Source of the DNA: Methanoplanus limicola DSM 2279
GTDB taxonomy: Archaea > Halobacteriota > Methanomicrobia > Methanomicrobiales > Methanomicrobiaceae
DNA: 64,000 nt
Assembly: GCF_000243255.1 (NCBI RefSeq)
Contig: NZ_CM001436.1
Span: 718,077 to 782,076, forward strand
Reading direction: 5' to 3'
The translations under genes and the position numbers were made by a program. This document shows positions 14,139 to 17,998 of this stretch, piece after piece. Positions within the stretch are counted from its first letter, which is position 1. The number at the start of each line of letters is the position of its first letter. The notes beneath the pieces were generated by a model. It did no database searches and was not told the DNA's origin. It worked only from the letters and a program-made list of their open reading frames with translations.

Positions 14139-15686
14139 ATGCAGAAACAAGGTGACAATTCAACAGATAAGATACAGATACACTGGGCAGATGTGATTGC
14201 ATCAAAGGTTGATGACAACGTCCCGCACAGAATTGCAACAGGCATCACCCCGTCCGGGCCGATACACATAGGAAATATGCGTGAAGTTCTCACCGGAGAT
14301 ATAGTATATAAGGCAATGACTGAGAAGGGAATTGATGCTGAACTTATATACAATGCAGATGATTTTGACCCGCTAAGGAAGGTCTATCCTTTCCTCCCGG
14401 AAAGTTATGAACAATATATCGGAATGCCAATCTGCGACATACCATGCCCCTGCGGAAAGCATGAGAGTTATGCAGACCATTTCCTTGAACCATTCCTGAA
14501 ATCACTCGAAGAACTTGACGTAAAACCAAAAGTCCTGAAATCAAGCGAATTATACAGAACCGGAAAATATACCGAAGAGATAAAGACCGTCCTTGAGAAG
14601 AGTTCCGAAATAAAAGAAATTCTTGAGCGCGTATCCGGCAGGACACTTCCGGACACATGGGTGCCGTTCTACCCCATATGCAAAGGATGCAGGAAAATAA
14701 GCAATGCAGAAATCCTTGAGCATATTCCGGAGAAAAACCTTGTTAAATATAAGTGCGAATGTGGGCACGAGGACTACTGCGACTACTCAAAAGGCGAGGG
14801 AAAACTTGTATGGCGTGTTGACTGGCCGATGAGATGGTCTGCCCTTGGAGTAACAGTTGAACCCTTCGGAAAGGACCACTCCGCATCCGGAGGCTCATAT
14901 GACACCGGAAAAGAGATTGTTGAGAAGATATTTAACGGCAGTGCACCTTTCCCAATCCAGTATGAATGGATCAGCCTGAAAGGAAAGGGTGCAATGGCAT
15001 CATCAACAGGTGTTGCAATATCAATAGAGTCAATGCTTGAGATAGTTCCGCCCGATGTGCTCAGGTACCTCATAGTCAGGACAAAACCTGAGAAAGCGAT
15101 AAGCTTTGATCCCGGAATGGGACTGCTTACATTAATAGACGAATATGCAAGACTCTCCGAGAAGGGAGAAGGACGCGAATATGAACTCTCCGCAATATCA
15201 GACGTAGCAACCGACATCCCGTTCAAGCACCTTGTAACAGTAGTCCAGATCGCACAGGACGAGGATGCCATATTTGAAATACTGAAGAGAAGCGGGTATA
15301 ATGTTGAAAACCGGGATGCTGTCCTGAAAAGAGCAGATAGGGCAAAGATCTGGGTTGACAAATATGCACCGGATATGGTCAGATTCACAGTCAGAAAAGA
15401 ACTTCCCGATGAAGTACTATCATTCAGTGCAGCAGATATCGATGCACTGACCCTTCTTATCGATAAATATGCTTCACTTAAGGAATGGAAGGCCGAGTAC
15501 CTTCACAATGCAATATACGATCTCGGCAATGAAACAGGTGCAAACCCGAAAGATATTTTCACTTCTATCTACATAGCAATTCTCGGACAGAAGAGAGGCC
15601 CGCGTGCCGGGTGGTTTATTGAGGCACTCGGGCAGGATTTCGTTATGAAAAGACTTATTGAAACGGTGAACGCAGGTGCTCAGTAA
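14139..15686 (+). CDS. lysS: lysyl-tRNA synthetase, class I
   Basis: 515 aa; charges tRNA-Lys with lysine. This is the archaeal class I enzyme, unrelated to the class II LysRS of most bacteria. It shows the HIGN signature (43-46), two zinc-like cysteine clusters (CPCG near 103; C-x-x-C ... C-E-C-G-H-E-D-Y-C near 187-210), and a KMSKS-equivalent K-G-A-M-A-S-S (283-289). C-terminal helical anticodon-binding region. The ATG at 14139 lies just after a TATATAAG tract, too close to be its TATA box in the normal geometry, so the promoter position is unclear. First gene of an overlapping operon with the radical SAM and cis-prenyltransferase genes. Confidence 0.96.
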   Translation: MQKQGDNSTDKIQIHWADVIASKVDDNVPHRIATGITPSGPIHIGNMREVLTGDIVYKAMTEKGIDAELIYNADDFDPLRKVYPFLPESYEQYIGMPICDIPCPCGKHESYADHFLEPFLKSLEELDVKPKVLKSSELYRTGKYTEEIKTVLEKSSEIKEILERVSGRTLPDTWVPFYPICKGCRKISNAEILEHIPEKNLVKYKCECGHEDYCDYSKGEGKLVWRVDWPMRWSALGVTVEPFGKDHSASGGSYDTGKEIVEKIFNGSAPFPIQYEWISLKGKGAMASSTGVAISIESMLEIVPPDVLRYLIVRTKPEKAISFDPGMGLLTLIDEYARLSEKGEGREYELSAISDVATDIPFKHLVTVVQIAQDEDAIFEILKRSGYNVENRDAVLKRADRAKIWVDKYAPDMVRFTVRKELPDEVLSFSAADIDALTLLIDKYASLKEWKAEYLHNAIYDLGNETGANPKDIFTSIYIAILGQKRGPRAGWFIEALGQDFVMKRLIETVNAGAQ

Positions 15687-16641
15687 GGCCTGCCGGCAAT
15701 GCCGCGAAGGCGCAAAGATGGTGCTCTTCGTAACCGGAGTGTGCACCAAGAGCTGCTGGTACTGCCCTATATCGGACGAGAGAAGAGGCAAAGACCGTGC
15801 CTATGCAAACGACAGGGTGATAATCCGTCCGGAAGATATAATCGAAGAGGCACGGATTATGTCGGCGCTCGGCACCGGAGTTACAGGTGGGGAAGCCCTT
15901 CTGGAGATGGACAGGGTTATGTCATTCTGCCGGTTGCTAAAACGTGAATTCGGGAAGGAACATCACATACACCTCTATACCGGAACTGCACCGGATGAAG
16001 AGTGCCTGAAAAACCTTCAGGGACTTGTCGATGAGATAAGAATGCACCCGCCGCAGGAAATGTGGGGAGACATTCTGGATACAGAATATATAACCTCTGC
16101 AAAAAAGGCAAAAGAACTGGGTTTTGAGGTCACCATTGAAGTGCCGTCACTTCCGGGGCTTGAAAATCTCATCCCCGCCCTGCCATATCTCGACTATATG
16201 AATATCAATGAACTTGAATGGTCTGAGACAAACGCAGAAGAGATGAGAAAAAAGGGTTACAGCCTTGAGGATGACTACCACAATGCAGTACCCGGAGCAG
16301 AGGCATGGGCAGAGGAGATATTAAAAAACCCTAAGGTTCACTGGTGCTCATCAACCTTCAAAGACTCAGTCCAGCTAAGAGAGCGCCTCAAAAGAATAGC
16401 AAATAATACAGCAAGGCCTTTTGAAGAGATAACAGATGACGGAACTGTTGTTTACGGAGTATGGTATCCGGAATGCGACATTCCAGAAGATCTTGAAGAT
16501 GACCAGTATGAAAAATTCGATGACAGGATAGAGACTGCCTGGTGGATCTTAGCAGATTTTCCGGATGATTTCCCCGGCAGAAAAGAGATCATCGAGAGAT
16601 ACCCGAATAACGGAATGGTTGTAGAGGTTACACCGATATGA
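15676..16641 (+). CDS. radical SAM protein of unknown substrate
   Basis: 321 aa. The [4Fe-4S]-binding motif is C23-x3-C27-x2-C30 (GVCTKSCWYCP), with a second conserved pair C6-x2-C9 just before it. A TGGE motif (about 70-73) follows as in many family members. The GTG start at 15676 lies inside the end of lysS (11-bp overlap); it is favoured over an ATG at 15718 because the latter would drop the C6/C9 pair. The stop overlaps uppS as ATGA. I recognise it as a conserved archaeal radical SAM family, but not its reaction. Confidence 0.85.
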   Translation: MLSKACRQCREGAKMVLFVTGVCTKSCWYCPISDERRGKDRAYANDRVIIRPEDIIEEARIMSALGTGVTGGEALLEMDRVMSFCRLLKREFGKEHHIHLYTGTAPDEECLKNLQGLVDEIRMHPPQEMWGDILDTEYITSAKKAKELGFEVTIEVPSLPGLENLIPALPYLDYMNINELEWSETNAEEMRKKGYSLEDDYHNAVPGAEAWAEEILKNPKVHWCSSTFKDSVQLRERLKRIANNTARPFEEITDDGTVVYGVWYPECDIPEDLEDDQYEKFDDRIETAWWILADFPDDFPGRKEIIERYPNNGMVVEVTPI

Positions 16642-17417
16642 AGAGAGCAAAAGAATATCTGGAATCACTATATGAGAAATACCTGCTGAGGCAGTGCAGA
16701 CATGTACCAAAACATATAGCCATAATTCAGGACGGAAACCGGAGATTTGCCAGAGAATCGGGTATTGAGGTTGCACTTGGGCACAGGCTCGGCGCGGAGA
16801 AGACTGAAACTGTCATGGACTGGGCGCATGACATCGGTGTCACACACATGACACTGTACTGCTTTTCAACCGAAAATTTCAGACGGACAAAGGATGAACT
16901 TGGTGAACTCTTCACCCTTTTTACCGAAAAAGCGATTGGGATTGTATCTGACGAGAGAGTACATAAAAATAAGATCAAATTTCAGATGGTCGGAGACAGG
17001 AACCTCCTCCCAAAAGACTTCCTTGAAAAGATAGAGAGAGTTGAGAGGATTACAAAAGACTATGACCACTTTACGATAAACCTCGCCATCGCATACGGTG
17101 GAAGAAACGAGATTGTACTTGCAGCAAAGTCAATCCTTCAGGAAACACGGAAAGGAACAATCTCACCGGAAGAAATCGACATACAAACAATTGAGGCGCA
17201 TCTCTACAGGGAACAGAATATCCCGCCGGTAGATCTGATAATAAGAACAGGCAATGATAAAAGAACCTCAAATTTTCTGCCGTGGCTTGCAAACGGGAAC
17301 GAATCAGCGGTATATTTCTGTGCGCCATACTGGCCGATGTTTCGAAAGATTGATCTGCTGAGAGGAATTCGAATGTATGACCAGAGAATTAAAAACGATC
17401 CTTCCTACTTCCCATAA
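16638..17417 (+). CDS. uppS: cis-prenyltransferase, catalytic-type subunit
   Basis: 259 aa, polyprenyl diphosphate synthase family: makes the long-chain lipid carrier for glycosylation from isopentenyl diphosphate. It has the catalytic QDGNRR motif (D32), the GHRLGAEK segment, YCFSTENF, and DLIIRTGNDKRTSNFLPW near residue 205. The C-terminus ends in NDPSYFP and lacks the R-x-G motif that homomeric bacterial enzymes carry near their end. The ATG overlaps the radical SAM stop. Its 3' end overlaps by 13 bp the convergent gene for a second, divergent family member. Confidence 0.92.
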   Translation: MKRAKEYLESLYEKYLLRQCRHVPKHIAIIQDGNRRFARESGIEVALGHRLGAEKTETVMDWAHDIGVTHMTLYCFSTENFRRTKDELGELFTLFTEKAIGIVSDERVHKNKIKFQMVGDRNLLPKDFLEKIERVERITKDYDHFTINLAIAYGGRNEIVLAAKSILQETRKGTISPEEIDIQTIEAHLYREQNIPPVDLIIRTGNDKRTSNFLPWLANGNESAVYFCAPYWPMFRKIDLLRGIRMYDQRIKNDPSYFP

Positions 17418-17998
17418 CGCCTTTTACGGGTCTGGTAATCCCTTAAGGCCCGCAGGAATTCTGTCTTCCGAAACTGCTTCCAGTTAACATCAGAGAAAAA
17501 AAGCTCAGAGTACACAGACTGCCATATAAGAAAATCAGTCAGGTGACTTCCGCCGGTTTTAATGACAAGATCCGGTTCATAATTGAAAGTCAGATATGAC
17601 TCTATCATCTTCTCATCGACATCTGCCGGATTAATATTATCCTCTGCCATCTTTCTGACGCACCTGACAATCTCATCGCGTCCGCTCATACCTATAACAA
17701 TATAGACATCCGCTCCCTCCCCTGATACTTCGGTGTTATCATCATAAGTGATGGTAACTTTCGCAAAAGAAGATATGTCACGGAGGTACGGAAGAAATAT
17801 CTCAGGATTTCCGAGATTATCTGTATTTATGTGAAAAATGACATTTTTTATGCCGCATCTGATGCACCATCCGGCAACTTCCTGAATTTTCTCCGGGGCA
17901 TCCGTCAAATCATAGCCGGTAAGCATAAAGCATAAAGAGTCAGGCAGGTACTTAAGTTCCCTCTCCAGTCTCCATTCATAATACCTGTGCACCAGCAT
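17405..17998 (-). CDS. divergent cis-prenyltransferase subunit (NgBR/Nus1-like)
   Basis: 197 aa, shorter than the usual 230-260. The first half replaces the catalytic D-G-N-R-R motif by L-T-G-Y-D-L-T-D, so it should not be active alone. The second half is clearly of the family: DLVIKTGG, then DFLIWQSVYSELFF and W-x-x-F-R. It ends in R-R-Y-G-K, giving the R-x-G motif that the neighbour lacks. This is the pattern of the non-catalytic partner in heteromeric eukaryotic and reported archaeal cis-prenyltransferases. The codons of RYG lie in or beside the overlap with the catalytic gene. Confidence 0.8.
   Translation of the reverse strand: MLVHRYYEWRLERELKYLPDSLCFMLTGYDLTDAPEKIQEVAGWCIRCGIKNVIFHINTDNLGNPEIFLPYLRDISSFAKVTITYDDNTEVSGEGADVYIVIGMSGRDEIVRCVRKMAEDNINPADVDEKMIESYLTFNYEPDLVIKTGGSHLTDFLIWQSVYSELFFSDVNWKQFRKTEFLRALRDYQTRKRRYGK

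Follow-up and report, generated by a model that had tools for sequence, protein, structure and literature searches.

Genes at the locus

The 64,000-nucleotide stretch of Methanoplanus limicola DSM 2279 DNA analysed here (the window, whose coordinates are used throughout) contains two convergent genes that match PF01255, a longer one on the plus strand and a shorter one on the minus strand, with two further plus-strand genes leading into the longer one. The features of the locus, and what each assignment rests on, are as follows.

14139 to 15686, plus strand: lysS, class I lysyl-tRNA synthetase, at the start of an apparent lysS-radical-SAM-catalytic operon (TIGR00467, 541 bits)
15676 to 16641, plus strand: radical-SAM gene, overlapping the start of the catalytic gene by 4 bp, ATGA (open reading frame, profile matches)
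16638 to 17417, plus strand: predicted catalytic subunit, a DHDDS-like cis-prenyltransferase of 259 aa without C-terminal RxG (PF01255, fold, residues)
16731 to 16745, plus strand: D-G-N-R-R codons, D32 to R36 (sequence; invariant in 81 of 81 members of the order)
17405 to 17417, both strands: 13-bp tail-to-tail overlap of the two open reading frames (sequence)
17405 to 17998, minus strand: predicted non-catalytic subunit, NgBR/Nus1-like, 197 aa (PF01255, NUS1 match, dN/dS)
17408 to 17419, minus strand: R194-Y195-G196-K197, the RxG tail predicted to enter the partner's active site (sequence, conservation, NgBR tail contacts)

The 4-bp overlap suggests that translation of the catalytic gene is coupled to that of the radical-SAM gene, and the catalytic gene appears to be the last of the operon; with the short gene transcribed from the opposite strand, this would be one enzyme made from two promoters. 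No specific NCBIfam family matched the radical-SAM protein at cut-off. The complete 3.2-Mb genome contains exactly two PF01255 genes, which are the pair itself; a second, complete UppS hidden elsewhere was considered, and none was found by the PF01255 search of the 3.2 Mb. As there are no other PF01255 genes, any cis-polyprenyl diphosphate that the cell makes must come from this pair.

Complementary motifs in the two proteins

The initial annotation described the plus-strand protein as having D-G-N-R-R and no terminal R-x-G, and the 197-aa minus-strand protein as lacking D-G-N-R-R and ending in R-Y-G-K; both descriptions are confirmed in the sequence. The 259-aa open reading frame matches PF01255 with 221 bits (cut-off 27) over profile positions 1 to 215 of 219, and because its chain stops at KNDPSYFP, the final positions of the profile, the site of RxG, are missing. 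The 197-aa open reading frame, whose C-terminus reads RRYGK, scores 98 bits against the same cut-off and matches profile positions 106 to 219 only. The catalytic Asp and the diphosphate-binding Arg and Ser residues are confined to the long chain and replaced in the short one, and D32, R35, R36, E79, N80, R83, R203, R209 and S211 are invariant in all 81 catalytic subunits of the order. Five of these residues (D32, R35, R36, N80 and R83) correspond to D34, R37, R38, N82 and R85 of human DHDDS, D32 being the equivalent of D34; in the human enzyme Mg is bound by D34, and diphosphate by R37, R38 and R85 (PMC7573591).

The tail motif is distributed the other way round. Of the 66 short subunits that are complete in the order, 65 have the Arg of the terminal RxG and all 66 the Gly, with Phe (47), Tyr (18) or Leu (1) between them, and outside the order 39 of 40 short subunits end in RxG, the remaining one reading RKFG. 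No conserved C-terminal RxG was found among the 129 catalytic subunits read; an R-x-G triplet occurs near the C-terminus in about 10 of them, at shifted and unconserved positions. The only complete short subunit of the order without the usual Arg-x-Gly (L056:1104-1694, minus strand) ends R-T-L-G-K; its genome is 76% complete, and the ending could be a sequence error. A further residue sets the chains apart: E165 of the short chain (codon 17504 to 17506, minus strand) is Glu in 66 of 66 short chains, and the aligned residue of the long chain is Val in 81 of 81. The Glu of the AELYF motif of E. coli UppS (Glu213), a residue conserved in bacterial UppS, aligns with E165, and this alignment makes E165 a possible second active-site residue given in trans by the short subunit.

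Predicted models were obtained for both chains. For the 259-aa chain (mean pLDDT 85.6) human DHDDS ranks first among the folds of the PDB (7pb1_A; Z 27.6, rmsd 3.2, 248 aligned residues), with several UppS structures scoring within 1 to 2 Z of it. The model of the 197-aa chain (mean pLDDT 84.4) shares the cis-prenyltransferase fold with many structures at a Z of about 15, NgBR (7pb0_B) among them at 14.2, so that fold comparison is not discriminating for this chain. At the sequence level, the human NUS1 chain 9r0e_B matches it end to end (residues 4 to 197 against 11 to 213, E 1.2e-6), NUS1 covers its residues 12 to 196 in a profile search (E 8e-10), and no PDB chains other than those of NUS1 align with the whole protein, the rest covering its C-terminal half to two-thirds.

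Distribution and selection

Nearly all genomes sampled from the phylum have the complementary pair. Within the order, PF01255 was detected in 144 of 150 sampled genomes (107 of the 108 of good quality), nearly all with exactly two genes, and one full-length match plus one C-terminal match is the pattern in nearly all of the 150. In the class sample, a profile built for the short subunit detects the gene in 194 of 199 genomes, and in the phylum sample it gives a match in 191 of 197; in families f15 and f20 this profile was weak, or matched the catalytic gene only, and there PF01255 itself shows the two-part pattern. With PF01255 scores far above the cut-off, and with the same pair recurring through order and phylum, the pair is not a chance reading. 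One genome of the order carries, in addition to the usual pair, a further PF01255 gene that matches over the full length with 137 bits (G008:C20:37607-38212). All five sampled genomes of family f12 (G216, G225, G234, G243 and G250) have no PF01255 match, though DUF92 is present; the carrier lipid of this lineage may be made by a route that needs no cis-prenyltransferase, or the enzyme may have been lost.

Between the window and its congener, dN/dS (Nei-Gojobori) is 0.054 for the long gene and 0.105 for the short one, and six further species pairs give values of 0.07 to 0.19 in both genes by the same method. The short gene could be read as a decaying uppS duplicate, as its PF01255 match is confined to the C-terminal half; its dN/dS of 0.07 to 0.19 across the seven species pairs, its collinearity with NUS1 over the full length and its retention in more than 90% of the genomes of the phylum speak against this so strongly that we give the idea practically no credence. 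The initial annotation named as fatal to its proposal the case of the shorter open reading frame being a relic without expression; the dN/dS values and phylum-wide conservation contradict this, and with purifying selection acting on both, neither gene is a relic.

Gene order and neighbours

Wherever the two genes lie close together, they converge. This is the case in all 67 fetched loci of the order that hold both genes (one with a truncated short gene), in all 33 genomes outside the order with the genes at most 5 kb apart, and in one more close pair from family f20; no same-strand or divergent close pair was found among these 67 and 34 loci. A separate set of 88 loci, drawn partly from the same genomes and with open reading frames classified by separate profiles for each subunit, gave 80 convergent pairs, no other arrangement, and eight loci in which only the short gene is present. 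Some tblastn tables had seemed to show pairs on the same strand; these cases vanished once separate profiles were used, and were taken as cross-hits between the paralogues. Genomes outside the order in which the pair is separated have the genes far apart (26) or on different contigs (33), and families with such a separated pair include f8, f9, f10, f14 and f22; across all pairs the intergenic distance ranges from an overlap of 54 bp to several kb with intervening genes.

In most Methanomicrobiales the radical-SAM gene, with its ATGA overlap, immediately precedes the catalytic gene, and it adjoins that gene in 97 of the 112 catalytic-gene loci tested. Seven families of other classes supplied eight loci (L253 to L260) in which the order is catalytic> <short DUF92>, with a gene for a DUF92 (PF01940) membrane protein divergent from the short gene in all eight (for example L256:5889-7145 and L253:5757-7145, both plus strand), an identity confirmed by Pfam in two of the eight. 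In three of them (L256, L257 and L260), from another class, lysS precedes the catalytic gene. Taken together, these loci suggest an ancestral block lysS - catalytic> <short - DUF92>; in M. limicola DUF92 is located elsewhere, and the radical-SAM gene stands between lysS and the catalytic gene. DUF92 includes a plant phytyl-phosphate kinase, and the archaeal DUF92 protein may act on the polyprenyl product. No link between DUF92 and archaeal polyprenol kinases was found in the open literature.

The overlap and the RxG codons

Tail-to-tail encoding with a 13-bp overlap, as initially annotated, is confirmed at the bases listed above. The accompanying statement, which places the RYG codons in the overlap, is right for Tyr and Gly, and fails for Arg except for one base of three: on the minus strand the 13 bp span the stop codon and the codons of K197, G196 and Y195, but R194 (codon 17419 to 17417) contributes its third base alone. 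On the plus strand, the stop codon TAA of the catalytic gene (17415 to 17417) is the complement of the wobble base of R194 and the first two bases of Tyr195.

The survey of Methanomicrobiales neighbours that had been proposed shows that the overlap recurs. In the window's own family, f1, it measures 13 bp in 12 genomes, including the window, and 31 bp in 10, and it has been lost in three genomes of genus g3, where the genes are separated by a gap of 42 to 74 bp. All 12 genomes with 13 bp have CGT-TA(T/C), that is RYG, and the ten with 31 bp have RFG in nine cases and RTLG in one. In the phase of this overlap CGT-TAT/TAC reads TAA on the opposite strand, and TTT/TTC reads AAA or a related sense codon, with which the catalytic gene extends six codons more. 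A change of Phe (TTT/TTC) to Tyr (TAT/TAC) in RxG therefore creates the stop codon of the catalytic gene, and the reverse change removes it. In a tree of the pair from which the RxG and overlap positions were left out, both overlap states fall inside genus g5, so that the switch between 13 and 31 bp has occurred more than once. Overlaps have also arisen several times independently, as a 27-bp overlap in a different phase is found in genus g14 of family f6 and in one f5 genome, and a 54-bp overlap in family f19. A consensus scan, which says little for archaea, found no terminators in the overlap.

Prokaryotic genomes commonly contain short convergent overlaps, those of archaea most of all (PMC2174442), and single cases therefore need no special cause. 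The overlap described here is likewise a short tail-to-tail overlap of the kind produced by stop-codon loss (PMC2174442); unlike ordinary convergent overlaps, it lies within a motif that works in the product of the other gene, and the gene order around it is conserved through the phylum.

Comparison with known enzymes

As outlined in PMC8131916 (its ref. 13), MM_0618 and MM_1083 of M. mazei form a heteromeric cis-prenyltransferase with C45-50 products, whose proposed role is to supply the C45-50 glycosyl carrier lipid. On this precedent the M. limicola pair is very probably a further member of an enzyme kind already known in archaea, archaeal and two-subunit like the M. mazei enzyme. It differs in that its genes are adjacent, convergent and overlapping by 13 bp, and in that M. 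limicola has no third paralogue like MM_0014; in the sampled members of family f8 (Methanosarcinaceae by inference) the pair is dispersed, its genes never being close.

With human DHDDS/NgBR (NUS1; PDB 6W2L, 6Z1N and 7PB1) the pair shares a similar catalytic fold and an identical R-x-G-K terminal layout. The NgBR tail, R290-L291-G292-K293, reaches across the interface, where G292 contacts N82 and R85 of DHDDS and the carboxylate of K293 contacts R37 and R85 (PMC7573591), and equivalents of the contacted DHDDS residues are conserved in the long chains of the order. Differences lie at the ends of the chains: the short protein has no counterpart of the N-terminal membrane segment of NgBR/Nus1 and starts where the homology does, and the catalytic chain stops at the last helix, without the tetramerisation helix-turn-helix of DHDDS. 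The bacterial UppS homodimer has the PF01255 fold and catalytic residues in common with the long chain, but neither archaeal chain combines the DGN motif with the RxG tail.

A probable heteromeric enzyme and its gene order

We consider it very probable that the pair encodes a heteromeric cis-prenyltransferase of the DHDDS/NgBR kind, which would make polyprenyl diphosphate for use as a glycosyl carrier lipid. Such a reading, already put forward in the initial annotation, draws support from the sole PF01255 pair of the genome, the complementary and conserved motifs, the NUS1 collinearity, the DHDDS fold and the experimental precedent in archaea; from the complementarity, conservation, folds, gene order and purifying selection described above we infer complex formation, activity, product and carrier-lipid role. 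The 259-aa subunit would bind Mg2+, the allylic primer and IPP and perform the chemistry; the 197-aa subunit, without the catalytic Asp motif, would pair with it via the common fold, and its R-Y-G-K tail would cross the interface and organise the diphosphate sites of the partner. A missing RxG is not in itself proof that a chain needs a partner: M. mazei MM_0014, without RxG, was crystallised as an active homodimer (PMC8131916), and weak activity is seen with human DHDDS on its own (PMC8131916, PMC7573591). MM_0014 lends some credit to the 259-aa protein being a self-sufficient homodimer of the MM_0014/MA1831 type, with the short protein doing something else, as do the accidental R-x-G triplets in several catalytic-subunit tails. 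We nevertheless judge this very improbable, since DHDDS is far closer than MM_0014 to the 259-aa protein (E 5.7e-37 against 8.7e-14), both genes co-occur in nearly every genome, and the RxG tail is conserved in the short protein, its known uses being only in trans or within a homodimer.

The convergent order is less ordinary than the enzyme: it cannot give co-transcription, yet it is the only close order seen in the phylum. We prefer to explain it by inertia, that is, by few breakpoints in a dense region; the tail-to-tail order would then be ancient in the phylum, and stop-codon loss would have produced the short overlap in family f1. That close pairs are always convergent, in the order and in the other families alike, would also suit a functional layout, in which, for example, overlapping antisense 3' ends couple the amounts of the subunits; we think this unlikely, because the distance between the genes varies and many families split the pair, so that the layout is dispensable, and because the neighbours lysS and DUF92 are conserved as well, which plain synteny fits. 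More doubtful still is the fuller proposal that the order, convergent since the ancestor of the phylum and repeatedly overlapping, has been selected since converging transcription or antisense 3' ends balance the subunits.

The heteromeric kind of enzyme was already known in archaea, as PMC8131916 outlines. What appears to be new is that close genes are always convergent, often with DUF92 beside them, and that in family f1 the 13-bp overlaps are all RYG and the 31-bp overlaps never. The open-access literature searched held no description of the tail-to-tail overlap or of the phylum-wide convergent order, and the evidence for novelty is to that extent weak. The overlap offers a natural case in which replacing a single residue of one subunit, the Phe of RxG by Tyr, goes along with a shift of the other subunit's stop codon. 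More broadly, our survey points to the split, DHDDS/NgBR-type enzyme as the norm rather than an oddity across this archaeal phylum, and its small, soluble heteromers without membrane anchors may serve as models for the human disease complex.
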